Of a stretch of 64,000 bases of DNA, positions 3,210 through 21,769 are shown one piece after another (the first letter of the stretch is position 1; each line of letters begins with the position of its first letter). This DNA is from Prolixibacteraceae bacterium. Lineage in GTDB: Bacteria > Bacteroidota > Bacteroidia > Bacteroidales > Prolixibacteraceae. The notes beneath the pieces are model-generated. The model was not told where the DNA came from and did no database searches. It was given only the letters and a program-made list of their open reading frames with translations. Position numbers and translations under genes: made by a program. The stretch lies in contig JABGRN010000009.1 in assembly GCA_018648265.1 (NCBI GenBank), positions 1 to 64,000 of the forward strand. Direction: 5' to 3'.

Positions 3210-4766
3210 TTAGCTGTCTAATTCAATTTTGAAAACCACAGCCATTTCATCAACCACTTTTGCAGGAGTTGTAATCTTTAATCCTTCATCTGTTAACGAA
3301 TATTGAATTTCTTCGTCACAACCCAAAAGCGATACATTTTTGATTTCTTTTGAATCTATCCAACTTTCTTTTGAAAACGATTCAAATAAAACCTCCGTAT
3401 TATTTCCCGGCCAGCCTAAAATCGTTGCGTAAACTGTTTTTCCTTTTGTTGAGTAACGCACATCTTTTGCTGAATATTTAACTTTCAAAAACTCGCGGTG
3501 GTTACTAAAATGTCCTTCGGGTTCTTTTGTTGGACCTTCGCCAAAAGTGTACCACGGGCGTGTTTCGTAAATTGCCTCTCCATATTTTGAAAGCCACTCG
3601 CCCATTGTTAAAAGAACATTTTGCTGATCATCGGGAATAGTGCCGTCGGCCATTGGCGAGATATTTAAAAGAAGGACTCCATTTTTACTAACAATATCGA
3701 TTAACACATGCAAAACATCAGCAGCAGGTTTTATTTTCAAATTATCTGTAAAGCACCAACTTCCTGTGCTAACTGTTTCATCGGTCATCCACGATTTTAC
3801 GTCCAATTTGTTTTTACGCGATTTTTCCAAATCATCAACACTAACTTCCAATGGTAAATCATCTTGCTTGCGTACAATTACAACTTCTTTCCCCAGTTTT
3901 TCGGCTTCATTTAAATAATATGCGCAAAATTTTAGTTGGTATTCTTCGGGAATCTGATCCAACCACGAATCGAACCACATAATATCTGGTTGATATTTGT
4001 CGATTACCTCTTTCAGCTTTCCAAACCACACTTCTTCCAGAAATTTTTCTTCAGGAATATTTCCATACAAATAATTTAATTCCGGATCATCCATTGCCGG
4101 TGGCATTCCCTCAAAAAGCGGGTAGTGACTATTTCTAAAAGCCCGCCCTGTATTTTCAGTATTTTCTTCCTTTTCTGACTGTTCTTTTCCTTTGTAGCGC
4201 TGTAAATTTTTGGCATGGTGGAAAGTGGTAATCAATTTCATTCCATTGCCTTTTAGTTCTTTTCCAAGCTCGCCGGTAATATCTTTTTTGGGTCCTTTGT
4301 CCATGCTATTCCACGGAGTTACATCACTGTCCCACATCGAAAATCCATCGTGGTGCTCGGCAACCAGACCGGCAAATCGTGCACCTGCTTTCTCAAACAA
4401 GTCGGCCCACTCTTTTGCATCAAACTTTTCAGCTTTAAACATGGGAACAAAATCGTGATAACCGAATTCCGACGGGTGACCATATTTTTCTACATGGTGT
4501 TTATAAATATTATTGTCTTCAAAATGCATCCAGCGAGGATACCATTCAGTACTAAATGCGGGAACTGAATAAACTCCCCAATGGAAATAAATACCTAGTT
4601 TTGCGTCCTGAAACCAGTCGGGTTCTTCGTTGTGCTGTGCCAGCGATTCCCATGTTTCCTGATATTTAGGTTCTGCTTTTTGTTCTTCCTGGGCTTTTTT
4701 AGTTGATGTTCCGCAACCTGCCAGAATTGCAAACATTAAGATTAGGGCAAAGATTTTGGTTTTCAT
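3210..4766 (-). CDS. GH29 alpha-L-fucosidase, lipoprotein
   Basis: A 518-residue enzyme hydrolysing terminal alpha-L-fucosyl (possibly alpha-L-galactosyl) residues. It has a lipobox (LMFAILAGC, Cys18), so it is probably anchored on a membrane surface facing the periplasm or exterior. GH29 landmarks are HWG at residues 62-64, EHHDGFSMW at 137-145, and the DIMWFDSW strand with the expected nucleophile Asp266. A beta-sandwich C-terminal domain follows from about residue 430. It is the last gene of the minus-strand series with the mutarotase and FucP-type permease, with a 244-base gap before it, so it may be co-transcribed or have its own promoter. It would supply the sugar that the permease imports. 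A second GH29 lies at 20468-21769. Confidence 0.9.
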   Translation of the reverse strand: MKTKIFALILMFAILAGCGTSTKKAQEEQKAEPKYQETWESLAQHNEEPDWFQDAKLGIYFHWGVYSVPAFSTEWYPRWMHFEDNNIYKHHVEKYGHPSEFGYHDFVPMFKAEKFDAKEWADLFEKAGARFAGLVAEHHDGFSMWDSDVTPWNSMDKGPKKDITGELGKELKGNGMKLITTFHHAKNLQRYKGKEQSEKEENTENTGRAFRNSHYPLFEGMPPAMDDPELNYLYGNIPEEKFLEEVWFGKLKEVIDKYQPDIMWFDSWLDQIPEEYQLKFCAYYLNEAEKLGKEVVIVRKQDDLPLEVSVDDLEKSRKNKLDVKSWMTDETVSTGSWCFTDNLKIKPAADVLHVLIDIVSKNGVLLLNISPMADGTIPDDQQNVLLTMGEWLSKYGEAIYETRPWYTFGEGPTKEPEGHFSNHREFLKVKYSAKDVRYSTKGKTVYATILGWPGNNTEVLFESFSKESWIDSKEIKNVSLLGCDEEIQYSLTDEGLKITTPAKVVDEMAVVFKIELDS

Positions 4767-5010
4767 ATTTTTAGTTATTAATTGTTTACTTAACTATTTA
4801 CATCCGAATTTCAATCCAGGTTTATTCTTTTTGAAACATACAAAACACTATATAAATCAAAGTCGTAACGCGGGTCATTTTTTTCACTTTATAACCTGAA
4901 TGTATCACAAATCTGCTATATTTCTTCCCTTCAATACCTGTTCCGAATTCGTTAATAAAGCTTGCCAATCCCTCACTGTAAACGGATATTTGAGACTGCA
5001 AACTTTCCTC

Positions 5011-5361
5011 CTATCCCAATTTATAAATACGTTCCATTAATTGCCATTTCTCGTCGGCAGTTGCTTCGGCTGACGTTTTTTGAAACCGTGAAACAAAAGC
5101 TTCCCATTCAGATTGCCGAGGTTTTGTCGCAAGTTCCTTCATTGCAGAATCGTGATCGAAATTAGCAACTGTATCCATTATCATAAAAAGCTGATTTCCG
5201 AGGATATAAATTTCCATATCAACAATTCCAACTTCTTTCATTCCCTGGGTAATTTCAGGCCAGACCTCTTCCGGAGTATGAACTTTTTTGTATTCCTCAA
5301 TTAATTGAGGGTTGTCCTCAAGTTTCAATGTTTTGCAATATCTTTTGAATTCTTTCATCAC
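5011..5361 (-). CDS. L-rhamnose/L-fucose mutarotase family protein (COG3254)
   Basis: A 116-residue cytosolic protein that matches the RhaM family: an early aromatic strand (FKRYCKTLKL), then the Y-K-K-V-H...WPEI motif with the probable catalytic His28, and the central MEIYILGNQLFMIMDT strands. The family interconverts alpha and beta anomers of 6-deoxy sugars. Because it ends 7 bases from a FucP-type permease, fucose (or L-galactose) is a more likely substrate than rhamnose. The start at 5361 gives the normal family length; the second Met is an equal candidate. Confidence 0.85.
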   Translation of the reverse strand: MMKEFKRYCKTLKLEDNPQLIEEYKKVHTPEEVWPEITQGMKEVGIVDMEIYILGNQLFMIMDTVANFDHDSAMKELATKPRQSEWEAFVSRFQKTSAEATADEKWQLMERIYKLG

Positions 5362-5368
5362 AAAAATA

Positions 5369-6673
5369 TTAGGTTAATAATTTTGGGTGAACTTTTAATG
5401 TTCGGTAACCATAAAGTGCGATTACAACAAACGAAAACCAGGGAAGAATAAATGAAAAATTTACTGCCGGCAGAAATCCAATGATACCCTGATCGATAAT
5501 TAAACCCTGCAAAGGCGGCATCAAAGCTCCCCCAACAATAGCCATCACCAATCCGGCTGCACCGAGGGTTGTATCTTCACCAATTCCGGTAAGTGCAATT
5601 CCATAAATTGTTGGAAACATTAGCGACATAAATGCCGAAGTAGCTACCAACAAATATAATCCGGGCATTCCCCCTATTAAAATTACTCCTGTTGTTGTTA
5701 TCAAGCCACCCATAGCAAAAAGCGTTAACATTAATTTGGCGTTTAAAAATTTCATTAAAAATGTGCTTATAAAACGGCTTGCTATAAAAATTGCCATTGC
5801 CACAATATTGTATTGCTGTGCTTCTGCTTTTGGGATTCCCAGATTATCGGCATACTGAATAATAAATGTCCAACACATAATTTGTGCACCAACATAAAAT
5901 ACCTGAGCAATAACTCCTTCGCGGTATTTAATGTTTTTTACTAATCTTTTAAATGAATCTTTTGTACGAATTGAATGATCTGCATTTTCGCGTTTTGGCA
6001 TTTTTGCAACTGCAATTACTACCAACATTATTATTACAAAAAAACCAAGAATTACGTATGGATTTCGAATAATACCAAGATCGTTTGTACGTATTACCGC
6101 CTTTTCAGCAGCAGTTAAAGTATCGAAAATTAAGTTGCCGGCAGCATCTCGTTTGTCCGATTCCAAAGCTGAAAGAATTACCCGCGATGCGATAAACATT
6201 CCAAAAATCGATCCCATCGGATTAAACGATTGTGCAAAATTTAAACGACGGGTAGCTGTTTCTTCAGATCCCATCGACATAATATAAGGATTTGCAGTAG
6301 TTTCTAAAAAGGCAAGTCCAAATGTTAAAATGTAAAGTGAAACAAGAAAGAATCCAAAGATTTCAAATTGTGCAGCAGGAAAGAACAACAATGCTCCAAT
6401 TGCGTAAAGTGCCAGTCCAATTATTATTCCCAGTTTATAACTGTATCGTTTTATTATTAATGCTGCCGGAATTGCCATGGTTGCATAACCACCATAAAAT
6501 GCGAATTGTACCATGGCAGCTTTTGCATTCGATATTTCCATAACAGTTTTAAAAGCTGCAACCATCGGATTTGTAATGTCGTTGGCAAATCCCCACATGG
6601 CAAACAAACTGGTAATCAGAATAAATGGCAAAAGAATTTTCTTCTCAACCACAATTTTTTTAGGATCTTTCAT
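5369..6673 (-). CDS. fucP: L-fucose:H+ symporter permease, FucP type (MFS)
   Basis: A 434-residue inner-membrane protein with about 12 hydrophobic helices and the FucP signature opening: LPFILITSLFAMWGFANDITNP is followed by conserved ETTANPYI in the fifth helix region and RLNFAQSFNPMGSI. Known FucP proteins import L-fucose with protons and also accept L-galactose and D-arabinose, which matters here because the locus encodes a GDP-L-galactose-forming epimerase. It sits between the mutarotase (7 bases) and the guanylyltransferase (41 bases), clearly one transcription unit. Substrate specificity cannot be read from sequence alone. Confidence 0.88.
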   Translation of the reverse strand: MKDPKKIVVEKKILLPFILITSLFAMWGFANDITNPMVAAFKTVMEISNAKAAMVQFAFYGGYATMAIPAALIIKRYSYKLGIIIGLALYAIGALLFFPAAQFEIFGFFLVSLYILTFGLAFLETTANPYIMSMGSEETATRRLNFAQSFNPMGSIFGMFIASRVILSALESDKRDAAGNLIFDTLTAAEKAVIRTNDLGIIRNPYVILGFFVIIMLVVIAVAKMPKRENADHSIRTKDSFKRLVKNIKYREGVIAQVFYVGAQIMCWTFIIQYADNLGIPKAEAQQYNIVAMAIFIASRFISTFLMKFLNAKLMLTLFAMGGLITTTGVILIGGMPGLYLLVATSAFMSLMFPTIYGIALTGIGEDTTLGAAGLVMAIVGGALMPPLQGLIIDQGIIGFLPAVNFSFILPWFSFVVIALYGYRTLKVHPKLLT

Positions 6674-6714
6674 TCACTTAAGTTTAAACAGGTTTTATTG
6701 AAATTAAATTGGTC

Positions 6715-7794
6715 TTACAAATATTGATTTTTATTTTCTGATTTTAGTTGATCAACAATTTTTTTTATGTCCTCGGCATTTTCTCGTTTACACACTAAAG
6801 TAGTATCTCCATCCTGAACAACAATTACATCATCCATTCCCACAACAGCAACTAATCCTTTTTCAGAATAAACATAAGAGTTTTTTGTATCCAGAAAAAT
6901 AGATTCACCACTTCCTGCATTTCCATTTCCATCTTTTTTATCGGCCAGGTAAACCGATTCCCAGCCCCCCAAATCGTTCCAATCGAAATTTCCCTCAACC
7001 AAATAAATGTTTTTGGCATGTTCCATAATTCCGTAATCCACCGAGTTACTTTCAACGGCGCGATAAATGGTATCTAATGTTTGTTCGAACGATGCATTCC
7101 CAAAATCGGCTTGAATTTTACGCAAATCGGAGTACAAATCAGGTGCAAATTCTTTTACTGAATTCAGAAAAACAGAAACTTTAAATACAAAAAGTCCGCT
7201 GTTCCAATAAAAACCACCTTCTTTCAAATATTCATTTGCTTTTGCCTCTTTGGGTTTTTCAACAAAACGTTCAACTTTAAACTGTTTTATTTTTTCCGAA
7301 CCAGTTATATTTTCGGCCGTTTGTACATAGCCGTAACCGGTTGCCGGAAAAGTTGGGGTTATTCCAATTGTAACAATTCCGTCCTTTTCATCCGCAATTT
7401 TTGCTGCTGCCAAAACGGTTTCTTTAAAAAGTTCATCGTTTTTAATTAAATGATCGGAAGGCGAAACAACCATAACTCCATCCGGATTTTCTTTCTCGGC
7501 AAACATGGCAGCCAAACCAATGCAAGGCAAAGTATTTTTGCCAACAGGTTCGTAAATCAAATTATTTTTAGGAAGCATCGAAGTTTGTTCTTCCAAAACC
7601 TTCGCCTGGCTTTTACCAGAAACAATATAAATATTCTCGGTATCAGTAAAAGTTGAAAACCTTTTTATGGTTGATTGTAACAAAGAGTCGTCACCAAAAA
7701 TATTCAGATATTGCTTTGGTTTTGCAACTTTACTTCTTGGCCAAAAACGGGTTCCCGATCCGCCTGCCATAATAAGGGTGTATAAATTTTTCAT
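6715..7794 (-). CDS. manC: Mannose-1-phosphate guanylyltransferase
   Basis: A 359-residue cytosolic nucleotidyltransferase that makes GDP-mannose from GTP and mannose-1-phosphate. The N-terminal signature MAGGSGTRFWPRS with the KPKQYL lysine motif is intact (residues 9-30). So are VMVVSPSDHLI (metal-binding Asp), RFVEKP and FYWNSGLFVF. It is the short form without the C-terminal cupin isomerase domain. Its neighbours (FucP, fused kinase/nucleotidyltransferase, GDP-mannose epimerase) suggest it feeds or drains the GDP-mannose pool used by the epimerase. The reaction is reversible, so the direction in this pathway is open. A repeat element separates it from the kinase gene. Confidence 0.9.
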   Translation of the reverse strand: MKNLYTLIMAGGSGTRFWPRSKVAKPKQYLNIFGDDSLLQSTIKRFSTFTDTENIYIVSGKSQAKVLEEQTSMLPKNNLIYEPVGKNTLPCIGLAAMFAEKENPDGVMVVSPSDHLIKNDELFKETVLAAAKIADEKDGIVTIGITPTFPATGYGYVQTAENITGSEKIKQFKVERFVEKPKEAKANEYLKEGGFYWNSGLFVFKVSVFLNSVKEFAPDLYSDLRKIQADFGNASFEQTLDTIYRAVESNSVDYGIMEHAKNIYLVEGNFDWNDLGGWESVYLADKKDGNGNAGSGESIFLDTKNSYVYSEKGLVAVVGMDDVIVVQDGDTTLVCKRENAEDIKKIVDQLKSENKNQYL

Positions 7795-7796
7795 AT

Positions 7797-7980
7797 AAAA
7801 GCCCCCTCTAGCTCCCCCAAAGGGGGAGGAATTTTAATTATTAATTTTAAGATAGTTTAAAACTAAAATAATTTCAACAAATAGATTCTATTTCAGTCGA
7901 ATATTAAAATATTTTTGCATCGTGATTAAATGCTATTCTTATTCCTTCCCCTTGGGGGAAGGCTAAGATGGGGCTCTTTT
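7797..7980. repeat. MITE-like element with terminal inverted repeats
   Basis: Left end: AAAAGCCCCCTCTAGC followed by CCCCCAAAGGGGG. Right end is the inverted, slightly diverged version (7941-7980). Each end also folds on itself. The 105 bases between are AT-rich and non-coding. The element fills the gap between the kinase gene and the guanylyltransferase gene and overlaps the kinase stop codon, so it may terminate or attenuate the operon transcript or stabilise its segments. Confidence 0.65.
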
Positions 7981-9115
7981 AATATCTAATTTTTACTTTG
8001 ATTGCTCCTTCCACTTTTCCTTCTGTTGGAAAAACAACGTATCCGCCACCGCTTCCAGAAGTTATTGCTCCAGAGTATTTTGGGAAATAATTAGTCTGCA
8101 TTTCTTGCATCACCCAGTCGGGAACAGTGTAAGGCAACATATCACTCCAGCATAAAAAGGTTTCTTTCATCGATTCGCCTAACAACTTAACATCCTTTTT
8201 CAAGATTGCTGTGTAACAATTTTCACCCGACTCACCTAATCTTTTAATAATTTTTGGATCAAGATTTTTTGTTAGTATTGGATTATAACCTTCCGGGCGG
8301 GGTTGCAAAGGAGCAAAGTTCAACACATTCGAGAGCCATTCACAAGTTTCTTTATCAGCTGTATTTTCAATGTAATTTGGCCAGAACTTTCCATCGTAAT
8401 CTATTCGGCTAACACCCGACACTAATAAACCAATGTGGTCCTGCGATCCTGAAATATATTCCGACCCGGGAGGATTTTCAGCACCAAAAAGCAATTGAGC
8501 GTTTCGAATTGGATCGCCATCTGGATACTTATCTCCCCACAATTCCATTGCAACTTTGCGCGAACTGGTTGCCATCCCAGAACGATCATTAAAATCCATT
8601 GTCGGCCAAATTTGAGCTACTACAACCGAGCCCGGGTGTTTTTCTGAAACCCAGGGTTGATCCATCCAACCCCCTGCTAAACAAACCCGATAAGGAAATT
8701 TCAATTCTTTTTTTGACTCAGAACTTGAACGAGTAGGTAAACCATCTTCCGGGATGCGTTCCAATACAACCAACTCCACACCATTTTCTTTGCAGAGTTG
8801 TTTTTTTTCGGCAGTAAATCCATCCGAATTCACAAGAAAAATATCGGGTTTTAGATTTTTCATATCCTGCTCAAAATCCAACATTCCAGAACCGGAAGCA
8901 ACATTTGCTTTTTCAACATAACGAACGGCACCAACTATATATTTACGTTCCTCTTCAGAAAAATAGGGTACCTTTCCTTTTAAGAATTTTATATTTTGAT
9001 CTTGCCCAACATAAACATGTAATTTACCATATTTAGCTGCAGTTTTAAAAAATGCTACATGACCTGCATGCAGCAAATCGTAGCAACCACTTACCATTAC
9101 TATTTTATCGCTCAT
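7979..9115 (-). CDS. Fused nucleotidylyltransferase / GHMP-type sugar kinase
   Basis: A 378-residue two-domain protein. Residues 1-130 are a cytidylyltransferase-like nucleotidyl transferase: GCYDLLHAGH (HAGH at 16-19), then an RSSSES segment like the family's second substrate motif. Residues 140-378 are a compact GHMP kinase: LAGGWMDQP, the ATP loop NDRSGMATSS (176-185), a SGSQDH block, and ITSGSGGGYVVF near the C-terminus. The kinase half resembles heptose/fucose 1-kinases. The likely chemistry is phosphorylation at C1 followed by nucleotidylation, as in the unrelated Fkp fusion for L-fucose. Nucleotide and sugar cannot be fixed from sequence; context favours L-galactose or L-fucose. It lies between palindromic elements and upstream of the guanylyltransferase. 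Confidence 0.8.
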   Translation of the reverse strand: MSDKIVMVSGCYDLLHAGHVAFFKTAAKYGKLHVYVGQDQNIKFLKGKVPYFSEEERKYIVGAVRYVEKANVASGSGMLDFEQDMKNLKPDIFLVNSDGFTAEKKQLCKENGVELVVLERIPEDGLPTRSSSESKKELKFPYRVCLAGGWMDQPWVSEKHPGSVVVAQIWPTMDFNDRSGMATSSRKVAMELWGDKYPDGDPIRNAQLLFGAENPPGSEYISGSQDHIGLLVSGVSRIDYDGKFWPNYIENTADKETCEWLSNVLNFAPLQPRPEGYNPILTKNLDPKIIKRLGESGENCYTAILKKDVKLLGESMKETFLCWSDMLPYTVPDWVMQEMQTNYFPKYSGAITSGSGGGYVVFPTEGKVEGAIKVKIRY

Positions 9116-9151
9116 TTAATAATGTTTCAAAAATTACAAAATAACCTAGCA

Positions 9152-9228
9152 CGTCATTCTGAATTTATTTCAGAATCTCAAATTAATCTATTATATTTTT
9201 GAGAAACTGAAACAAGTTCAGTTTGACA
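9152..9228. repeat. Imperfect palindrome, CGTCATTCTGAA type
   Basis: CGTCATTCTGAATTTATTTC at the left is an imperfect inverted match of the right part, which ends AAGTTCAGTTTGACA. Both ends carry the typical C-T-G-A-A...T-T-C-A-G sub-hairpin. It occupies the gap between the epimerase stop (9256) and the kinase start (9115). No coding potential is seen. Confidence 0.55.
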
Positions 9229-9255
9229 AACAAAGGAGTTGAATCTAAATTTGAC

Positions 9256-10224
9256 CTACTTCGATGCATGCATCTGTTCTTTAATCCAATCGTAAGTTTT
9301 TTTCATCCCATCTTTTAATGGATACGAAGGTGCCCAATTAAGATATTCTTTAATTAAATCATTATCACTATTCCGTCCGCGAACGCCTTTTGGCGCATCC
9401 AAATCATAAGTACGTTTAAGCTTAATTCCTGCAATTTCTTCCACATAATCAACTAATTCATTAATTGAAACCATTTCGTCACTACCCAAATTAATAGGCT
9501 CCTCAATACCACTTTCCATAATTTTCAGGATTCCTTCAACACATTCATCGATGTACATAAACGAGCGGGTTTGTTCGCCGTCACCCCAAATAATAATTTC
9601 GTCTTTTCCGTAAAGTTCGCCTTCAATTACTTTACGACACATCGCAGCCGGTGCTTTTTCGCGGCCACCATCGTAAGTTCCAAACGGACCATAAACATTA
9701 TGAAAACGTGCAACACGGGTTGTTAATTTAAAATCTTCTGTAAAATGACGGCACATTCTTTCCGAAAAAAGTTTTTCCCAACCATAACCATCTTCTGCCA
9801 TTGCCGGGTATGCATCTGCTTCCTTTAGTCCTGGATTATCTACATCGGTCTGTTTTTCGGCATTATAAACACATGCCGACGAAGCATAAAAGAATCGGGT
9901 AACACCCACATCGCGGGCGGCCATTAATAGGTGTGTATTTATTAAAACACTCAACATACAATCGGCTTTGTTATTTTCAATAAAACCCATTCCGCCCATG
10001 TCGGCAGCCAAATTAAATACTTCGTTTAAACCATTTACCGAAGTGTAACAATTTGCCTTATCGTTTAAATCAAGCACCAAATTGTCACAATCATCGTGCA
10101 CCTGATACCATTGGGTTAAGGGTTTTTTATCTACCACACGAACAAAATGTCCCATGTCTGCTAATTTTCTTGCCAGATGTCCGCCAATAAAACCACCTCC
10201 ACCTGCTACTAAAATTCGTTTCAT
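9256..10224 (-). CDS. gme: GDP-mannose 3,5-epimerase, plant-like
   Basis: A 322-residue extended SDR. From memory of the plant enzyme (GDP-D-mannose to GDP-L-galactose and GDP-L-gulose), very long stretches coincide: NLAADMGGMGFI, FFYASSACVY, RFHNVYGPFGT, GGREKAPAA, WGDGEQTRSF, NLGSDEMVS and RGRNSDN. The NAD loop GGGGFIGGH is at 8-16, the YxxxK pair at Tyr147/Lys151, and the two epimerase acid/base residues (Cys and Lys, Cys145/Lys217 in Arabidopsis) correspond to Cys118 and Lys190. I chose the ATG at 10224 because MKRILVAGG is the normal Rossmann start; a 20-residue upstream extension is unlike the family. It is the first gene downstream of the divergent LacI regulator. Confidence 0.88.
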   Translation of the reverse strand: MKRILVAGGGGFIGGHLARKLADMGHFVRVVDKKPLTQWYQVHDDCDNLVLDLNDKANCYTSVNGLNEVFNLAADMGGMGFIENNKADCMLSVLINTHLLMAARDVGVTRFFYASSACVYNAEKQTDVDNPGLKEADAYPAMAEDGYGWEKLFSERMCRHFTEDFKLTTRVARFHNVYGPFGTYDGGREKAPAAMCRKVIEGELYGKDEIIIWGDGEQTRSFMYIDECVEGILKIMESGIEEPINLGSDEMVSINELVDYVEEIAGIKLKRTYDLDAPKGVRGRNSDNDLIKEYLNWAPSYPLKDGMKKTYDWIKEQMHASK

Positions 10225-10304
10225 TTTTCTGATTTTTAATTTTATTTTCAATACAAATATTGATAAACTTTTCATGCCCTGCAACCCGATAAGAAGAAGC
10301 TTTT

Positions 10305-10334
10305 AACGCAAAGGATTCCGCAAAGGTTTGCGTT
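10305..10334. promoter_or_regulatory. Candidate operator in the LacI/epimerase divergent region
   Basis: AACGCAAA and TTTGCGTT form a perfect 8-base inverted repeat spaced by 14 bases, in the 247-base region between the divergent regulator and epimerase genes. LacI-family proteins bind palindromes, usually less widely spaced, so this is a suggestion only. Confidence 0.3.
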
Positions 10335-10446
10335 GACAATTATATGCTGCAGAACATTTTCTGTGTCGCAAAAACAGGGTGATGCGATAACCAAATAGCA
10401 TTTTTTATAACGGTATTTTGAAAGTCGAAACACCCAATAAAAGTGC

Positions 10447-10454
10447 TAAATTTG
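10447..10454 (+). promoter_or_regulatory. Bacteroidota -7 element of the lacI-type gene
   Basis: TAAATTTG fits the Bacteroidota -7 consensus TAnnTTTG and lies 17 bases before the regulator's ATG. A TTTG at 10417-10420 is a possible -33 element but the spacer (26) is longer than usual. Confidence 0.45.
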
Positions 10455-10471
10455 CATAACATTCAAAATTA

Positions 10472-11485
10472 ATGAGCAAACGACACATATCATTAAAAGA
10501 TTTGGCAAACGAACTTAAAGTTTCCATTTCAACTGTTTCGCGGGCATTGAAAAATCATCCTGACATTAGTCCCGAACTAACTTTGAAAATACAAAAGCTT
10601 GCAGCTGATTGGAATTACACCCCAAACCCGCTGGCAATGGGTTTACTGCGACAACAAACAAAAATGATTGGTGTTATTGTTCCAGACATCGTTACTCATT
10701 TTTACGCCTCTATTATTTCGGGGATTGAAGAAGTGGCAAAACAACACGGTTATTATATTGTAATTGCCTCATCAAACGAATCGCTTCAGAAAGAGATTGA
10801 GTCGGTTGAAAACCTTTTAAAATCGAGGGTTGAAGGATTTATTGTTTGTTTGAGCCAGGAAACCAATAAATACGACCATTTTGAAAAGTTAAATTCCAAC
10901 GAAATTCCACTTGTTTTTTTCGACCGAATTTGTGAATCATTAGATGTGCCATCGGTTGTTGTTGACGGTGTTGAAGCAACAAAAAAGATAACCCGGCATT
11001 TTTATGAAAACGGATGTAAAAGAATTGCATATATTTCGGGCCCGGAACATTTGAATATTTCTAAAAACCGAAAAGTCGGATATCTCGAAGGATTAAAAGA
11101 GTGTGGATTAAAATTCGACCCTCAATTTTTAGTCACATGTAATTTGAGTACCAAAGATGCAACTCGCGCAACCCGGCAACTACTAACAAATAAGATTCTT
11201 CCCGACGCTATTTTTGGATTAAACGATACCATTGCTTTTGCTGCAATGAAAGAAATCAAAAATCAAGGTTTAAAAATTCCCGATGATATTGCATTGGTTG
11301 GATTTACAGACGAATTTCATTCAACAGTTGTCGAACCTTCTTTAACCTCGGTTACACACCCGACTTTTAAGATGGGACAGGAAGCAGCCAATTTGTTTTT
11401 TAAGTGTATTCGAAATGGGAAAGGATTCTCTGAAAAAATTGAATTAAAAGCAGATTTGATTATTCGTGAGTCAACCTTAAAATAA
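10472..11485 (+). CDS. LacI-family transcriptional regulator
   Basis: A 337-residue DNA-binding regulator. Residues 5-26 form the LacI helix-turn-helix (SLKDLANELKVSISTVSRAL), followed by the hinge helix (NPLAMGLLRQQT) and a periplasmic-binding-protein-like sensor domain from about 60 (IGVIVPDIVTHFYASIISGI). It ends with the usual TSVTHPTFKMGQEAANLF dimer segment. It is divergent from the epimerase operon, so it most likely controls the nucleotide-sugar/fucose-type genes from 10224 down to 3210 in response to a sugar or sugar phosphate. The effector is unknown. Confidence 0.88.
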   Translation: MSKRHISLKDLANELKVSISTVSRALKNHPDISPELTLKIQKLAADWNYTPNPLAMGLLRQQTKMIGVIVPDIVTHFYASIISGIEEVAKQHGYYIVIASSNESLQKEIESVENLLKSRVEGFIVCLSQETNKYDHFEKLNSNEIPLVFFDRICESLDVPSVVVDGVEATKKITRHFYENGCKRIAYISGPEHLNISKNRKVGYLEGLKECGLKFDPQFLVTCNLSTKDATRATRQLLTNKILPDAIFGLNDTIAFAAMKEIKNQGLKIPDDIALVGFTDEFHSTVVEPSLTSVTHPTFKMGQEAANLFFKCIRNGKGFSEKIELKADLIIRESTLK

Positions 11486-11992: not shown

Positions 11993-14611
11993 CTAATTCA
12001 AATTCAATAGAGTCACCGGTCCCAATAATCCGGCATCCTTAATTTCCCATTCAGAAGCATCAAATGGTTCGTATTCGATATTCACTAAATTTATGTCGTG
12101 GAAATTTCGCCAAACCACTCCCCTTTTATCTAAATCGCGAATTCGGTTAGCTGCTACATTACTTACCTCAATTTCCAGTTTATTATTTCCTTCAATTAAA
12201 TTTTCAACTTTTATTTTAAAAACAGGACCAAGCAAAGTACCCAATTCTTTTTCATTCAAATAAACCCGTGCACAGTCTTTGACATCGCCAAGATTAAGAA
12301 TTCCTGAGGCAGATTTTTGAGACCAATTAAATTCTGTTGAATACTTAACTGTACCTGCAAATCTCTTTGTTTCATGGTCACCAGCATTTGTCCACGATAC
12401 TAAATCATCCATTTGCAAATTACCCGGATAAACAGGACCACCTTCCAAAAACTCTACTTTCCAAAGTGCGCCAATTTCAATCAGGTTTGACTCTGACTCT
12501 TCATAAGCAAAATCAGGAGCATCAATTGATTTTTCCACACATCTTATAAACACCGATTGTTCTGTATCTAATTGAATTCGAATCGATTTTCCCTTTTTAT
12601 CGGCTTTACTTATTTCGCCATTCATCGGATTCAAAAAAACATACGATTTTGCAGGCGATTGTAATTCCACCCATTCATCTTTCATTTCCAATCCGGTATT
12701 AAAAACCATGTACCAATCTTCATTATTCTTTTTCATTTTCAGGAAATGAAATCCTTTTCCAGATAAAGATTGCTCACCTGCAACATTATTCGCAAGTAGT
12801 AATTCGCCAACATTTCCTACCAATATTTCGGTTGAAACTGAAGATTTTATATTTTCCAGAAGTTGTTCTCGTTCTTCCAAATTTGCCATTCCGGGAACGC
12901 TTTTCGGAAGAAATTCATCGAAATAAACTTTCCCACCGTCAGCAATAAATTTTGCAAGTTGTTTCATAGTCTCCACGGGAATGTATTCTGTTTTCGGAAC
13001 AATAACAGCTTTATAATTCGATTTACCGGAAGTGACAATTTCGCCGTTTAACAATTCACAATCCAATAATTGTTTATCCGAAATGTAATCGAAAGTGTAA
13101 CCCGCTTTTCTCAATTCTTCCGACAAACCTGCAATGGGATGTTTCATAAACCAACCGGCATCTTTATTAACTCCAAGGTGATTAAATAACCGACCTTCGC
13201 TGGCTGCAACATCGTAATATGGCCAGTAAATTAAAATGTCATTCCCCATTTTAGATTCCTGTAAAACCGTTTGTGAACGTTCGATGTATTTAAATAATGT
13301 TGGCATTTCGCGGTAAAGTGGATTTCGGTTATTTATTTGTGTTGAAGCATAAAACAGCCAACCCGGCCATTCTGCATCCTCGAAAGAATAACATGTTCCA
13401 TGAAAAAACATGTGATTAATTCCTGCCAGAAAAAAGCGGTTAGTTGCCCGAACCAAATCTGAAGTTGTTACCGTCCAATGTTCTTCCAACCACGTGTAGC
13501 TTTCTGACGAAACCAGTTTTTGTCCGGTTACATGTGCAGCCGAAGACGCAAATTTATTTACAAAAACATCAACCGTGCCCGGTTCAACCGTTCTAAAAAT
13601 CTCTGTTTCTGGAATGTCGCAGGCAGCATATAAATCCAGTATATTTCCCGGCGATCCGTGCGCCTGATTTCTGTTAAGACTTTTATGATTGTTTGCCCAT
13701 TCGGTCATTGGCTGAATAAATGATTCAAGAACCAAATCAGCCAGTGTTTCACGATAATCGGATTTTACACGGGCAACAGTTTCATTATCTTCGCAATCGC
13801 CAGCCAAAACATGTAAATAATTTGCCAATTTATAACCCCTGCGTTTTTCAAATTCCTCCAAAAAATTAGTCGTAAAATCCCCTGTATATTCAAACGAATC
13901 GTGGAAAAAACATCTTAGTTTTCCTTCGTCAATTCCCAGTCTTGTCCAAAATTCATCGAGGTACCAATTGGTAATATCTTCGTTAAAAGTATCGATTGCC
14001 CAACCTTCACCACCTTCAGAAGGACGTTTTACTTTATCGCGATTTTTTAATCGCAGCGCAGTATAAACGGTTCCGTCAGACGGTGCCTCAAAAGTTTCAG
14101 CAGCATTTAAAATGGTAACTTCTTGGTTTTCATTCACAAAAGAAATGGCAGCTGCATTTTTTACATCGGCAGGAAGTTTCCATATTTCTCCCTTTATAAT
14201 TTCCATTTTTTGCATTCGCAACGACCAAAGCCCTTTTTCTTCTGGTACAAAAGGTGCACCGCATCGCCAGCCACTTCCGGGAGGTAAATCAACGCCCAAC
14301 CCCAGTTTGTTAGCTTCTTCGATTGTAAATTTTAATATCTCCGAAAACTCAGGAGACAAGTATTCAATGAACCGATCTTCCGTACCTTTCACACCATAAA
14401 TCGGCGTAATTTCCATCCCGCCGATTCCGGCATCTGCAAATTCGCGTAATTCACGTTTAATATTTTCCTCATCAACAGCATTCCCCATCCACCACCAGCG
14501 TGTCCATGGTTTCGATTCTTGTGTTGGTTCGGGCCATTCTACTTTTTCGGCTGTGCAGGATCCAAGAAATAAAAAAATTATCAAGAAAGTGATTTGATAT
14601 AAATTTTTCAT
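11993..14611 (-). CDS. GH106-like alpha-L-rhamnosidase, lipoprotein
   Basis: An 872-residue exported hydrolase with a lipobox (LIIFLFLGSC). The start of the mature part, PWTRWWWMGNAVDEENI followed by FADAGIGGMEI, and the central SSAAHVTGQKLVSSESYTW are typical of GH106 and its relatives. A C-terminal beta-sandwich (about 750-870, ASGILNLGDVKDCARVYLNE) looks like a carbohydrate-binding or galactose-binding fold. It is somewhat shorter than typical GH106 enzymes, so substrate may differ. The upstream toroid gene ends 5 bases before it, so the two are co-transcribed and probably act on the same glycan. Confidence 0.78.
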   Translation of the reverse strand: MKNLYQITFLIIFLFLGSCTAEKVEWPEPTQESKPWTRWWWMGNAVDEENIKRELREFADAGIGGMEITPIYGVKGTEDRFIEYLSPEFSEILKFTIEEANKLGLGVDLPPGSGWRCGAPFVPEEKGLWSLRMQKMEIIKGEIWKLPADVKNAAAISFVNENQEVTILNAAETFEAPSDGTVYTALRLKNRDKVKRPSEGGEGWAIDTFNEDITNWYLDEFWTRLGIDEGKLRCFFHDSFEYTGDFTTNFLEEFEKRRGYKLANYLHVLAGDCEDNETVARVKSDYRETLADLVLESFIQPMTEWANNHKSLNRNQAHGSPGNILDLYAACDIPETEIFRTVEPGTVDVFVNKFASSAAHVTGQKLVSSESYTWLEEHWTVTTSDLVRATNRFFLAGINHMFFHGTCYSFEDAEWPGWLFYASTQINNRNPLYREMPTLFKYIERSQTVLQESKMGNDILIYWPYYDVAASEGRLFNHLGVNKDAGWFMKHPIAGLSEELRKAGYTFDYISDKQLLDCELLNGEIVTSGKSNYKAVIVPKTEYIPVETMKQLAKFIADGGKVYFDEFLPKSVPGMANLEEREQLLENIKSSVSTEILVGNVGELLLANNVAGEQSLSGKGFHFLKMKKNNEDWYMVFNTGLEMKDEWVELQSPAKSYVFLNPMNGEISKADKKGKSIRIQLDTEQSVFIRCVEKSIDAPDFAYEESESNLIEIGALWKVEFLEGGPVYPGNLQMDDLVSWTNAGDHETKRFAGTVKYSTEFNWSQKSASGILNLGDVKDCARVYLNEKELGTLLGPVFKIKVENLIEGNNKLEIEVSNVAANRIRDLDKRGVVWRNFHDINLVNIEYEPFDASEWEIKDAGLLGPVTLLNLN

Positions 14612-14616
14612 ATTGG

Positions 14617-16695
14617 TTAGTTAAATTTTTCAATTTGTAATTTACTAAGCTTTTGCGGGGGTAAAGTTATTTCTATCTCCTTGATTTTATCAGTAATGAC
14701 GAGTTGTGATTGTTGTTTCGCATTTAAAAGCACCTTATAATTTCCGTTTTCAAGATTAAAAAACCTGGCACCCATTTTTCGGGAATCATTTCCAAAATGA
14801 AAAAGCTGAGCTTCAAACTTTTGTGTTGAATTCGTTTCTGTAAGAATTGCAATTTCTTTTGAACTGGTCAACCATTGAACACCAAAAACCGGTAAAAATT
14901 TAAAATTGCCGATACTTCCCGTCAAACTGGAAAATAAAAAACCCGCATTAAACACAGGAATTTTTTCAGCAAAAAAGTAGTTAAAATATTTCCCTGTAGC
15001 AAACAGACGATCGGTCCAGCGCACTTCTGTAGTAAAAAACTCTTCTGGCAACGAAAGCGACATTCGCAATTCGTTCATCGATTTCGTTAGTTTTTGAACA
15101 TCTTTTTCAAAAATAAAACTTTCGTAACCTTTTGCATCGTTTTCCAAAATCGAATCGAAAGAAAAATCATTAGTGATTAAGCGATATTTAATTAAAATCT
15201 CCGGAATGCTATCTTTTAATTTTGCCAGGCTCCATTCCAAACTTCCCTCTTTATAATCCTCCGTATTATTTTTAGCAACACCAAGTAATATTTTTTCAGC
15301 AACAAAACGAATCGGGTTCAGGTAAAATTCGTCTTTTGTAATATGATAAGCCTGCAAAAAACACTCGTACATATTTTCCTGCTGACTTGGATAATCGTAC
15401 AGCGGTGAGTGATAATTTTCGGGTTGCCACCAATTTTCTCCGGTGCCTGATGGTTTTCCGTCGGGCCAGTGAATTGCGGTTGGCACAATTCCATTTGGTT
15501 TTCCATTCTCTTCTGAAAAAGTTGCCTCTACCCAGGTTTTTAGCCAGCTTTTCATAAATCGGCCAACTCGTTCGTTGCCAGTCCTCAACCAGATTAACAT
15601 TAGTGGTTGAACCAGGCGCGTATGGTATGGTGAATCGCACGCCCGTTTATCATTTAAGTCAACTGTATCAACATTAAACCAGGTAGATTTAAATTGAAGT
15701 TGCCCGCGTTGGTTTATTCCACTCCACAAGTTTTCAATGTAATCGAGAACTTGTAAAGCACGTTTTTCCCAAACAGGGTTTTCGGCTTGCAAATTTAACA
15801 TACAAGTTAGTGGGTCGGAATATTCCTCCGAGGTGTGTTCAACGTCGCTCATGCTTTTTGTGTACCCTTTCTCCATTTTCGACAAAGCATACAAACCTTC
15901 AAACAATTTTTCCTTGCTGTTAACCGCTTTTTTATCCTCGAAAGCAAAAAGAACCGGAACCCAGTTTCTCCACATTTCTACATCGTCGCCCCAGCCACCG
16001 CCAAACTGACCATCCGAAATCTGTCTATTATCAACCCACCAATGAATCAAATAGGTTAATTTTTCCAAAACCATTCGCTGATAATTTGCCCAATCGGGAG
16101 CTTTTTGATTTGCTTCAACTATTTCGTTCCACGGTTTATAATTGCCTAAATAGCCCTTAATTAATTCATTTTCAGGATAAGACCTTTGTGAAATTTTTAA
16201 CAAGCGGAGACTTTCGTTTATGTACTTATTGCGATTTTCGGGAACTAAACTAATTTGCCCATTTTGAATTAAATGAGCGAGTAGCATCCTACTTCTGTAA
16301 AATGCTATTATCGGGGAAAAAAGATTTGACTCTTCAAGTTGAGGAAAAAAGAAACGATCGATTTTGCACTCACGAATAAAACCACATAAATATCCACTCG
16401 ACTCATTTCCTTCGGAACCAGGATTTGCGTATTTCTCAAATCCATTTGCCCAACGATCTGCAATAAAAAATAATTTTCCCAGAATCTCCTTTTCATTTGA
16501 AGAAAACAAAGGATTTTTTAAGGCATCCTCAAGAAGTTTTGCACGCCTTTTTTCATCGTTTGTATTTCCAATCTTCAGAATTAATTTTTCTAAAGGATTA
16601 TTTGTGTATTGCGCAAACAACTTTGTTGGCATAAAAGAAACTACAGTTGCAAGTGCTGTAATAGCTTGTATAAAATCTTTTCGGTCTAGGTTCAT
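14617..16695 (-). CDS. Exported protein of unknown family, likely helical toroid enzyme
   Basis: A 692-residue protein with an N-terminal signal (MNLDRKDFIQAITALATVVSFMPTKLFAQ). Long amphipathic helices from 190 to 480 with glycine/aromatic loops (GQFGGGWGDDVEMWRNW, ENWWQPENYHSPLYDYPSQQ) suggest an (alpha/alpha)n toroid of the glycoside hydrolase or polysaccharide lyase type. A beta-rich C-terminal part (about 590-690) follows. I do not recognise a named family. The acidic pair in GWGDDVEMW and the WWQPENYHSPLYDY loop are candidate active-site regions. It is translationally close to the GH106 gene (5 bases), which suggests a partner role in rhamnose-containing glycan breakdown. Confidence 0.6.
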   Translation of the reverse strand: MNLDRKDFIQAITALATVVSFMPTKLFAQYTNNPLEKLILKIGNTNDEKRRAKLLEDALKNPLFSSNEKEILGKLFFIADRWANGFEKYANPGSEGNESSGYLCGFIRECKIDRFFFPQLEESNLFSPIIAFYRSRMLLAHLIQNGQISLVPENRNKYINESLRLLKISQRSYPENELIKGYLGNYKPWNEIVEANQKAPDWANYQRMVLEKLTYLIHWWVDNRQISDGQFGGGWGDDVEMWRNWVPVLFAFEDKKAVNSKEKLFEGLYALSKMEKGYTKSMSDVEHTSEEYSDPLTCMLNLQAENPVWEKRALQVLDYIENLWSGINQRGQLQFKSTWFNVDTVDLNDKRACDSPYHTRLVQPLMLIWLRTGNERVGRFMKSWLKTWVEATFSEENGKPNGIVPTAIHWPDGKPSGTGENWWQPENYHSPLYDYPSQQENMYECFLQAYHITKDEFYLNPIRFVAEKILLGVAKNNTEDYKEGSLEWSLAKLKDSIPEILIKYRLITNDFSFDSILENDAKGYESFIFEKDVQKLTKSMNELRMSLSLPEEFFTTEVRWTDRLFATGKYFNYFFAEKIPVFNAGFLFSSLTGSIGNFKFLPVFGVQWLTSSKEIAILTETNSTQKFEAQLFHFGNDSRKMGARFFNLENGNYKVLLNAKQQSQLVITDKIKEIEITLPPQKLSKLQIEKFN

Positions 16696-16791: not shown

Positions 16792-18054
16792 ATGAAAAAA
16801 CTATTTATATCTATATTTTTTTCTCTTGTTTATTTTTCCGCAAGTGTATTAGCCCAACCATTTGAAGGAAAATACAACGAAGTGATTTATAAGGAATCTG
16901 AAGTTCCATCTCATAAATTACCAGATGTTTTGACCACATTTAACGGAGAGAAAATTGATAATATTGAAAAATGGGAAAAAGCGCGAAAACCTGAAATTCT
17001 CAATTTTTTTGAACAGAATTTATTTGGGGAAATCCCAGTTCCGCTTAGTGCAATTAAAAAATCTTTCGAGATTGTGTCAGAAGACAAAACTATTTTAGAA
17101 GGGCTTTGCACGCGCAAAGATGTTTTAATAACCCTAAAAAACGATATTGGAGAAGTAAAAATGCCACTTGTGCTTTTTATTCCAAACCATGCAAAAAAAA
17201 CCGTTCCGGTAATTTATTTGGCCAATGGAAGCGATATAAAAAATAACAGACTGGAATTGGAAAACCTGCAACGATTTGGTTATACACGTAACGGAATTCC
17301 TTTGCGGGAATTAATGTTACGTGGAATTGGACTTGCGACTATCGACTACCAGGCATTTGCAAGCGATAACCGAAATAAAGACGGAAAAGTTAGTGGAGGA
17401 ATTACTAATCTTTTTTTTGAAGCTGGACAGGAATTTACAAGAGAAAATGAATGGGGAATGATGGCAATTTGGGCTTTCGCAATGCGATCCGGGATGGATT
17501 ATCTGGAAACTGATTCTGAAGTAAATGCCGGGCAAATTGCTGTTTTGGGATGTTCAATTGGTGGAAAAGTAGCATTGTGGGCAGCGGCTACCGACGAAAG
17601 ATTTGGGATGACTTTATTGGCAACAGTTGGACATGGCGGTGATGCGATTTGGCGGCGTGAATTCGGCGAAACTCTTGAAAATATGTGTAAATATCTTCCA
17701 ACATGGGTATGCAGGAATGCAAATAAATATGCAAAAAACATTCACGAGATGCCGGTAGATCAGCACTGTTTGCTGGCAACACTTGCACCCCGCCCATTTT
17801 ATGTAAGCAACGCTCAGGACGATTTATGGGCCGACCCCAAAGGACAGTGGATCGGAACTTACAATGCCGCACCTGCATATAAATTATACAACAAAAATGT
17901 AGCTTTTTCATCACCCGAACAGCCGCAGGTTAATCAACCAATAATTGAAAGTAAAATTGGATATCACATTCGTTCAGGATTTCATGGGCTTGAAGTTTAT
18001 GATTGGTTGAGGTACATGAAATTTATTGAATACCATTTTATTAGCACCCTATAA
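16792..18054 (+). CDS. CE15-like glucuronoyl esterase family protein
   Basis: A 420-residue exported alpha/beta hydrolase (signal to about Ala21). CE15 landmarks are present: WGMMAIWAFAMRSGMDYLETD (221-241), the nucleophile elbow GCSIGGK with Ser255, HCLLATLAPRPFYVSNAQDD, and the C-terminal GYHIRSGFHGLEVYDW with His398. Known glucuronoyl esterases cut esters between lignin alcohols and 4-O-methylglucuronate. They have GCSRxGK; here the Arg that helps the oxyanion hole is Ile. The enzyme may therefore act on a different ester. It is divergent from the toroid/GH106 operon and 385 bases upstream of the propeller gene. Confidence 0.75.
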   Translation: MKKLFISIFFSLVYFSASVLAQPFEGKYNEVIYKESEVPSHKLPDVLTTFNGEKIDNIEKWEKARKPEILNFFEQNLFGEIPVPLSAIKKSFEIVSEDKTILEGLCTRKDVLITLKNDIGEVKMPLVLFIPNHAKKTVPVIYLANGSDIKNNRLELENLQRFGYTRNGIPLRELMLRGIGLATIDYQAFASDNRNKDGKVSGGITNLFFEAGQEFTRENEWGMMAIWAFAMRSGMDYLETDSEVNAGQIAVLGCSIGGKVALWAAATDERFGMTLLATVGHGGDAIWRREFGETLENMCKYLPTWVCRNANKYAKNIHEMPVDQHCLLATLAPRPFYVSNAQDDLWADPKGQWIGTYNAAPAYKLYNKNVAFSSPEQPQVNQPIIESKIGYHIRSGFHGLEVYDWLRYMKFIEYHFISTL

Positions 18055-20437: not shown

Positions 20438-20467
20438 GCTGACAAATTGAATCAAAAACCATTCCTG

Positions 20468-21769
20468 ATGAAAACCATTTTTTTAGTTTTTCTCACCTTT
20501 TTGACTGTATTTTCATCTGCCCAAAACTATACAACAAATGAGCAGCTTTTAAAAGAATTTCAAGATATAAAATTTGGAATGTTTGTTCATTGGGGACCTG
20601 TTAGTTTAAAAGGAACAGAAATTGGCTGGTCGCGTGGACGGGAAGTTCCGGCTGAAGAGTACGACAATTTGTACAAAGAATTTAATCCAACAAAATTTAA
20701 TGCCAACGATTGGATAAAAACGCTGAAAGATGCAGGCATGAAATATTTTATTGTTACCTCGCGCCACCACGACGGTTTTAGCATTTGGCCAACAGAATAT
20801 TCAGAATACGACATTGAAGCAACTCCCTACAAAAAAGATGTTTTAATGGAAATGAAAAATGCCTGCGATAAATACGGCATTTTGTTTGGCACATATTATT
20901 CAATTTGCGATTGGAAACACCCGGATTACCCACTTGGAAGCCCGGGTGGAAAAACAAAAAAAGAAACCGGTAATATGGAAAAGTTTATTCCTTTTCTAAA
21001 GGGACAAACCAAAGAATTAATTGAAAAGTACAACTCTAAAATTTTGTGGTTCGATGGCGAGTGGGAAGAACCGTGGACTCACGAAATGGGATTGGATTTT
21101 TACCAATATTTAAAAGGATTGGATGAAAATATTCTCATCAATAATCGGGTTGACAAAGGCCGAAAAGGAATGGAAGGAATTACCATTTCGAAAGAATTTG
21201 CCGGCGATTTTGCAACACCTGAACAGCGTGTTGGAACCTATGATATTGAAAATCCGTGGGAATCGTGTATCACCATTTGTAATCAGTGGGCGTGGAAACC
21301 CGATGATAAAATGAAAAGTTTAGAGCAGTCTTTATTCACCTTAATTAAAACTGTTGGTGGTGGTGGCAATCTGCTTTTTAATGTTGGTCCGATGCCCGAC
21401 GGGAGAATTGAACCACGCCAGGTTGAACGTTTAAAAGAAATGGGCAGCTGGCTGGAAAAATATGGCGAAGCTATTTACGGAACAAAAGGTGGCCCGTACA
21501 AACCAAACCAATGGCTAGCATCAACCAGAAAAGGCAACACGGTTTATTTGCACTTAATGAACTACAAAAAACAACAGCTTGAAGTTCCATTTCCTGAAGA
21601 TGTAAAAATTGAAAGTTGCAAAATTCTGAAAGGAAAAAAACTGGATTTTGAAAAATCAAGCGAAGTGTTAAAAATTGAACTTCCTAAAAATAATAATGAA
21701 CTTGTTACGGTTGTGGAAGTAAAAATCGAAGGAAATTCAGAAAAATTAGAAACAATAGAAATCTACTAA
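20468..21769 (+). CDS. GH29 alpha-L-fucosidase
   Basis: A 433-residue exported enzyme. I start at the ATG at 20468 because it gives a clean signal peptide (MKTIFLVFLTFLTVFSSAQ); an earlier TTG at 20447 adds seven polar residues. GH29 features: FVHWGPVS (39-46), SRHHDGFSIW (98-107) and the KILWFDGEWE strand with nucleophile Asp196. The substrate-facing TIM barrel ends near 350 with a short beta domain after. Its sequence differs widely from the GH29 at 3210-4766, including a GEWEEPW loop after the nucleophile, so the two probably cut different fucosyl or galactosyl linkages. It is 5 bases from the SDR gene. Confidence 0.9.
   Translation: MKTIFLVFLTFLTVFSSAQNYTTNEQLLKEFQDIKFGMFVHWGPVSLKGTEIGWSRGREVPAEEYDNLYKEFNPTKFNANDWIKTLKDAGMKYFIVTSRHHDGFSIWPTEYSEYDIEATPYKKDVLMEMKNACDKYGILFGTYYSICDWKHPDYPLGSPGGKTKKETGNMEKFIPFLKGQTKELIEKYNSKILWFDGEWEEPWTHEMGLDFYQYLKGLDENILINNRVDKGRKGMEGITISKEFAGDFATPEQRVGTYDIENPWESCITICNQWAWKPDDKMKSLEQSLFTLIKTVGGGGNLLFNVGPMPDGRIEPRQVERLKEMGSWLEKYGEAIYGTKGGPYKPNQWLASTRKGNTVYLHLMNYKKQQLEVPFPEDVKIESCKILKGKKLDFEKSSEVLKIELPKNNNELVTVVEVKIEGNSEKLETIEIY

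Follow-up and report, generated by a model that had tools for sequence, protein, structure and literature searches.

A conserved gene cluster of Prolixibacteraceae that pairs a fused nucleotidyltransferase/kinase with GDP-mannose 3,5-epimerase is a candidate for L-galactose breakdown through GDP-sugars

We analyzed a stretch of 64,000 nucleotides from a Prolixibacteraceae bacterium (positions 1 to 64,000 of contig JABGRN010000009.1, assembly GCA_018648265.1), referred to below as the window, and in particular a cluster of seven genes at positions 3210–11485. The cluster encodes a fused nucleotidyltransferase/GHMP kinase, which together with its close relatives is called NTK1 here to distinguish it from a sister clade, NTK2, and next to it a GDP-mannose 3,5-epimerase (GME). 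An initial annotation of the sequence had listed a LacI regulator, GME, the fused protein, mannose-1-phosphate guanylyltransferase (GMP), FucP, a mutarotase, and a GH29 glycosidase; all seven are open reading frames at the positions it gave, and the family matches bear out the list. As discussed below, the cluster is probably a locally regulated operon for the catabolism of L-galactose.

The LacI-family regulator is encoded divergently on the plus strand (10472..11485; PF00356/PF00532, with E-values of 2.3e-37 for Peripla_BP_1 and 2.8e-11 for LacI), and the remaining genes lie on the minus strand. The GME frame was listed as 342 aa with a TTG start at 10284, and an ATG located 20 codons inward is the likelier start (9256..10224). 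The ManC-type GMP (6715..7794) matched TIGR01479 with an E-value of 2.4e-99, below the cut-off and over positions 2–353 of the 467 in this model, which spans GMP plus phosphomannose isomerase. Two GMP copies were found in the window's genome; the second, at C91, is 34% identical. The FucP-type permease of the major facilitator superfamily (MFS; 5369..6673) matched TIGR00885 (E-value 1.7e-174; 580.9 bits against a cut-off of 280.4) and remained under the cut-off of the other FucP model, NF007524 (250.6 against 427). The RhaM/COG3254-type mutarotase (5011..5361; PF05336, rhaM, E-value 1.4e-29) probably acts on sugars of the L-galactose/L-fucose configuration; its top sequence match in the PDB, L-fucose mutarotase 7byu, was weak (E-value 3.9e-5). 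The GH29 glycosidase (3210..4766; Pfam GH29, E-value 9.4e-103) is a probable exo-α-L-galactosidase. None of the seven genes reached the cut-off of the GalT or GalE models in the family-library scans.

A probable LacI operator, GCAAASCTTTGCGNNANCCTTTGC, lies upstream of GME (10308..10331, minus strand). The pattern was drawn up after viewing 16 regions upstream of GME, all of them from close relatives; 12 carry it exactly, two with one mismatch, one with two mismatches, and one (L086) is without it. The window's genome holds a single exact copy, which suggests that the regulator is local. A LacI regulon beyond the operon was rejected, since the genome contains one further site with three mismatches and the reversed-pattern control also gave one.

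The window GME has the short-chain dehydrogenase/reductase fold and matched the plant GME 2c59 with an E-value of 1.9e-100 and 50% identity. Cys145, Tyr174, Lys178, Lys217, and Arg306 of the plant enzyme, which we take to be its catalytic residues, are all conserved in the window protein. Counted from the ATG at 10224, the first four correspond to Cys118, Tyr147, Lys151, and Lys190, and the alignment thus confirms the residues that the initial annotation had described as kept. The Tyr, both Lys, and the Arg were present in all 43 aligned GMEs of NTK1 loci, and the Cys in 42, with one gap. In the GME tree, these 43 proteins and two unlinked GMEs from NTK1-bearing genomes were split by a 100/100 branch from plant GME and from five further bacterial GMEs, two of which are nearer to the plant enzyme (52.5–52.8% identity). 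The nearest named relatives of the window GME belong to Draconibacterium and other Prolixibacteraceae. The earlier description of the module as “plant-like” is a loose label in view of the identity and the separate clade. From its sequence, the window epimerase is predicted to interconvert GDP-mannose and GDP-L-galactose.

The N-terminal domain of the window NTK1 (residues ~1–138; 8702..9115, minus strand) is a TagD/RfaE-like nucleotidyltransferase with an HAGH motif (PF01467, TIGR00125). The N-terminal third matched CTP_transf_like (E-value 2.1e-9), which is the sole Pfam match of the protein, and the Foldseek matches of the domain included 3glv, 5x3d, 2b7l, and HldC 5xf2. Identity with heptose-1-phosphate adenylyltransferase (HldE, or RfaE domain II) was rejected, as TIGR02199 gave 48.6 bits against a cut-off of 181.5. 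No match to PF07959, the fucose pyrophosphorylase domain, was found in the protein or anywhere in the window's genome.

The C-terminal domain (residues ~139–378; 7979..8701, minus strand) did not reach the Pfam GHMP models, and a search of PDB sequences with a profile built from the NTK1 alignment gave significant matches over the nucleotidyltransferase half only, so that structure comparison was needed for the kinase half. The AlphaFold2 model of this domain, a compact GHMP sugar kinase, had a pLDDT (predicted local distance difference test) score of 93.5, and its GHMP fold was clear by Foldseek, although the fold leaves the choice of substrate undecided. Ranked by E-value, the best match was the fucokinase part of FKP (9iip, 1.4e-7), followed by the heptokinase WcbL (4usk, 2.2e-7), full-length Fkp (9iit, 2.7e-7), and then other GHMP kinases; in contrast, the query-normalised TM-score placed WcbL ahead of the FKP fucokinase (0.73 vs. 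0.61). The heptose alternative considered in the initial annotation is therefore weakened by the first ranking, yet it retains the higher TM-score. G223, Q225, D226, and G356–G358 are conserved throughout NTK1 and NTK2, each with no more than one exception, and may correspond to the catalytic Asp and the glycine-rich motifs of GHMP kinases. In the NTK2 protein of L118, PF08544 was slightly under its cut-off (7.5e-4). A partial NTK match in one further genome (G135, L131) was not resolved in the list of open reading frames. If our assignment is true, it provides a function for a protein that the scanned family libraries call merely cytidylyltransferase-like.

We compared 50 NTK1 loci, namely the window and 49 relatives; the counts derive in part from fragmented metagenome assemblies and from a simple open-reading-frame caller. 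GME adjoins NTK1 on the same strand at 43 of them, mostly in Bacteroidota and also in Ignavibacteria and Calditrichaceae. L086 has GME, and its contig ends within NTK. L043 and L071 start with NTK or close to it, and both genomes contain such a GME; the break at L071 lies in the assembly, because in our set of family genomes the same place shows GME followed directly by the first part of an NTK. This set comprises 140 genomes of the window's family, with NTK1 in 35, GME (at least 78% identity) in 35, and both in 33. In 32 of these 33 genomes the two genes share contig and strand, with gaps of 13–239 bp. The pairing is far beyond chance.

The neighbors of NTK1 across the 50 loci were LacI (27), GMP (23), GH29 (22), an MFS permease (19), mutarotase (16), GH95 (6), SSF (3), FucI (3), and FucU (1). 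Pfam tallies for 116 neighbor proteins of 25 NTK1 loci gave LacI 16, GH29 11, NTP_transferase 10, MFS 10, rhaM 10, GH95 7, GH43 3, and SSF 2, and no glycosyltransferase was among the 25 commonest of the 73 families. For 120 proteins around 21 NTK2 loci, the commonest 25 of 141 families included GDP_Man_Dehyd (18; this model picks up related short-chain dehydrogenase/reductase enzymes as well), MFS (7), rhaM (6), Polysacc_synt_2 (6), glycosyltransferase family 4 (3), and GH29 (2), as well as glycosyltransferase family 2 (GT2) and Bac_transf. The NTK1 neighborhood looks catabolic.

The glycosidases suggest that the sugar handled is probably L-galactose. Among PDB structures, the window GH29 was closest to BpGH29 (7snk/7ljj; 355/351 bits), the exo-α-L-galactosidase of the Bacteroides plebeius porphyran locus (PMC12316285), and scored lower with the fucosidase 4ni3 (307 bits). 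BpGH29 was also the best match of a second type of GH29, from L049, by a wider margin (302 vs. 200 bits), while two control GH29s from NTK2 loci matched fucosidase 6gn6 first and BpGH29 far lower. In the GH29 tree, a 100/100 branch set a group containing the window enzyme and BpGH29, the only characterized row, apart from the other sampled GH29s. This group holds 21 of the 26 GH29s from NTK1 loci (20 by tree and one fragment by BLAST) vs. none of three from NTK2 loci, and at least one member is present at each of the 21 GH29-bearing NTK1 loci scanned. With no more than three GH29s from NTK2 loci, a test of locus labels on the tree was uninformative (four changes, a value as low in all 500 of 500 shuffles); the evidence on this point comes from the BLAST scores, the ranking of PDB matches, and the 100/100 branch.

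The GH95 of L067 was closest to BACOVA_03438 (4ufc; 925 vs. 790 bits), which frees L-galactose from corn xylan (PMC4491172). Thus, three of the four glycosidases of NTK1 loci compared with the PDB were nearest to known α-L-galactosidases, and one was without a match. A specificity residue of GH95 was once proposed and later doubted, as noted in PMC8245568. With regard to the glycan source, the initial annotation had named porphyran-type or other glycans. Porphyran is not required, as GH95 (in one case close to the corn-xylan enzyme), GH43, or GH3 occurs at some loci.

The sister clade provides further insight into the role of NTK1. A tree of 45 NTK1 proteins (relatives from the locus comparison above, the window itself, and L091) and 21 NTK2 proteins (~40–45% identical to the window; L087–L090 and L110–L126) parted the clades by a 100/99 branch. 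Partners of the fucose type, for GDP-L-fucose synthesis or L-fucose use, were found at 12 of the 21 NTK2 loci. GDP-mannose 4,6-dehydratase (GMD) and/or GDP-L-fucose synthase (FCL) lie near NTK2 at eight loci (L088, L089, L110, L119, L120, L122, L125, and L126), NTK2 at L124 sits in a fucose operon with FucI, fuculokinase, FucU, FucP, and aldolase, and at L090 and L117 it accompanies a permease with a mutarotase. At L118 (8212–9987), a RhaM-type mutarotase is fused to NTK2 in a single frame of 592 aa adjoining a GH29. In addition, the C-termini of two scanned NTK2 proteins matched that of the bifunctional Fkp (PRK13412; 3.3e-13 and 5.5e-12).

Within the 140 genomes of the window's family, Fkp (PF07959 over cut-off) occurs in 29 and NTK2 in 44, and none has both, where 9.1 would be expected (hypergeometric P = 3.6e-6, kinship ignored). 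On the other hand, NTK1 occurs together with Fkp in 11 genomes (7.2 expected) and with NTK2 in 10 (11.0 expected), suggesting that NTK1 does another job. Most simply, NTK2 would take the place of Fkp in the salvage of GDP-L-fucose, and NTK1 would have a different role; NTK2 looks like a second, compact fucokinase/GDP-fucose pyrophosphorylase. By analogy, NTK2 would make GDP-L-fucose and NTK1 would make GDP-L-galactose. The window's genome has its own NTK2 (G000:C21:19942-21063) among polysaccharide-type genes.

On this basis, we propose the following route. The GH29 exo-α-L-galactosidase would release L-galactose, FucP would take it into the cell, and the mutarotase would provide the correct anomer. 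The GHMP domain of NTK1 would convert L-galactose to L-galactose-1-phosphate, and the TagD/RfaE-like domain would convert this with GTP to GDP-L-galactose. GME, opposite to its known role in making GDP-L-galactose, would then form GDP-D-mannose, from which GMP operating in reverse would yield mannose-1-phosphate for glycolysis and regain GTP. As the pyrophosphate from NTK1 would be consumed by GMP and GTP would be catalytic, the net cost would be one ATP per L-galactose. The presence of a second GMP copy at C91 is consistent with a dedicated role of the operon copy in the presumed reverse reaction.

This route builds on the gene content, conservation, co-occurrence, folds, and active-site residues observed here, and each substrate, nucleotide, and direction, as well as the inducer, is assigned by context and homology. 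The same chain from import and mutarotation through the 1-kinase, NDP-sugar, and reversed GME to mannose-1-phosphate had been put forward in the initial annotation; it is the chain best supported by the neighborhood, the contrast between NTK1 and NTK2, the GH29/GH95 affinities, and the published equilibrium of GME, which lies toward GDP-mannose. We lean, with less confidence than for the operon as such, toward an undescribed GDP-sugar breakdown of L-galactose that uses a new compact kinase/guanylyltransferase family, with GME reversed and with the sister clade serving as a non-orthologous replacement of Fkp. Searches of the open-access PMC library, which does not cover subscription journals, gave listings of 10–30 papers each, some out of far larger hit sets, and among these no paper described NTK or the breakdown of L-galactose by way of GDP-sugars.

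Several observations weigh against this proposal. Compared with its structural relatives, the GHMP domain of NTK is short by ~100 residues, and the use of GTP by a TagD/RfaE-fold domain would be unusual, the usual donors being CTP or ATP. GMP, the MFS permease, and the mutarotase were found at only 23, 19, and 16 of the 50 NTK1 loci, several of which are cut by contig ends. GME apparently lies ~20 kb away on the same contig at L061 and on another contig at L076; the genomes of L038 and L083 yielded no GME at an E-value of 1e-60. Five of the 26 GH29s of NTK1 loci fall outside the BpGH29 group, and the GH95 of L091 (3468–5789; Pfam GH95) had no PDB match at 1e-30. FucI is present at three NTK1 loci (L051, L055, and L056), each with one more GH29 that is not of the BpGH29 group, as though these loci had gained a fucose branch. 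Three of the 21 NTK2 loci had GMP alone nearby, and six were without any partner sought. At L089 (7285–9537), a GME homolog (43% identical to that of the window) immediately precedes NTK2, with GMD and FCL behind it; this mixed arrangement means that the split of partners between NTK1 and NTK2 is not perfectly clean. Furthermore, the similarity cluster of BpGH29 also includes xyloglucan-active fucosidases, as described in PMC11189522, so that the nearest relative is no proof of specificity.

Two of these loci have further features, named by eye. Transposase-like frames occupy the expected place of GME upstream of NTK1 at L038 (4869–6271), by insertion or misassembly, and the Verrucomicrobia NTK1 of L076 (55% identity) lies amid ABC sugar transporter-, uronate isomerase-, and GH4-like genes.

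An unlikely, though the least unlikely, alternative is that the locus serves surface glycans, with NTK1 salvaging free L-galactose and GME and GMP making GDP-L-galactose from mannose-1-phosphate. The occurrence of GMP at nearly half of the NTK1 loci fits this possibility, as does a review that ties bacterial GME to lipopolysaccharide synthesis (PMC8787198). Of four GMEs from NTK1-free genomes of the order, that of L129 adjoins a glycosyltransferase-like gene, that of L128 is within 3 kb of one, that of L130 sits in an apparent O-antigen-type cluster, and that of L127 has no neighbor of this kind (names by eye), and NTK2 loci that look like salvage loci have a permease and mutarotase too. However, glycosyltransferases are missing from the 25 commonest families around NTK1, unlike around NTK2, and LacI, the α-L-galactosidase-like enzymes, and the permease look catabolic. 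NTK1 and GME would be redundant for the synthesis of GDP-L-galactose, which the GME equilibrium would drain into GDP-mannose, and the GMEs linked to NTK1 stand in a clade of their own, apart from both the plant enzyme and the five remaining bacterial proteins.

Somewhat less probable still is that NTK1 uses another sugar (L-gulose, a substituted L-galactose, or a heptose) or another nucleotide, with GME acting on a different GDP-sugar. GME products also include GDP-L-gulose and GDP-altrose (PMC8787198), the nucleotidyltransferase domain resembles heptose-1-phosphate adenylyltransferase, and the highest listed TM-score of the kinase was with the heptokinase WcbL; but the TIGR02199 score is far below its cut-off, and the GH29/GH95 affinities, FucP, and the mutarotase indicate galacto-configured L-sugars. 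Finally, an L-fucose operon, with GDP-L-fucose as the product of NTK1 and an epimerase that forms GDP-D-rhamnose or has its role elsewhere, would account for the usual fucose genes FucP, GH29, and mutarotase, for FucI at three NTK1 loci, and for the coupling of NTK2 with a GME homolog at L089, but is very improbable given that the window's genome has FucI elsewhere (C119, 68% identity) and its own NTK2, that NTK1 coexists with Fkp and NTK2, and that the GH29s of NTK1 loci are mostly of the α-L-galactosidase group.

Elsewhere in the window, a GH106-type α-L-rhamnosidase and a 692-aa protein without a Pfam match lie beyond LacI (11993–16695), followed by a glucuronyl-esterase-like gene (16792–18051) and a second GH29 family protein (20450–21769, plus strand). 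Two proteins of ~770 aa (47604–49937 and 61520–63826), with no Pfam match at an E-value of 1e-4, are similar in layout by eye, and tandem PQQ_2 propeller proteins (50238–51539 and 51721–53109) look duplicated.

The bacterial breakdown of L-galactose found in the open-access literature is oxidative. In Luteolibacter, LguA-H act through a dehydrogenase to L-galactonate, tagaturonate, and 2-keto-3-deoxygluconate (KDG), and a Phocaeicola vulgatus route is mentioned in the same paper (PMC12632266), in whose main text “GDP” occurs 0 times. These routes share the substrate with the proposed one but use dehydrogenase chemistry in place of GDP-sugars. The plant route from L-galactose to ascorbate has GME and GDP-L-galactose in common with it; however, it runs in the opposite direction and ends in ascorbate, as outlined in PMC8787198. 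In vitro, Fkp also converts L-galactose to GDP-L-galactose, with a Km ~100-fold higher than for L-fucose (PMC11982464). NTK resembles Fkp in its kinase and guanylyltransferase logic, and the fucokinase part of Fkp was the best Foldseek match of its GHMP domain by E-value; unlike Fkp (~950 aa, PF07959), NTK has 378 aa and a TagD/RfaE-fold nucleotidyltransferase at the N-terminus, and does not match PF07959. Among solved structures, BpGH29 is the closest to two GH29s of NTK1 loci, and BACOVA_03438 to one GH95.

The closest parallel in logic is the pyrophosphorylase (Isselbacher) form of the Leloir pathway, in which D-galactose is processed by a kinase, as an NDP-sugar, by an epimerase, and by a pyrophosphorylase. 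Both would combine a mutarotase, a GHMP 1-kinase, NTP-dependent activation of a sugar-1-phosphate, an NDP-sugar epimerase, and a reversed pyrophosphorylase. In contrast to the Isselbacher form, which uses UDP and a 4-epimerase to turn D-galactose into glucose, the proposed route would use GDP and a 3,5-epimerase to turn L-galactose into mannose, with the kinase fused to the nucleotidyltransferase. It works like the Leloir pathway but is no member of it, as none of the seven genes passed the cut-off of a GalT or GalE model.

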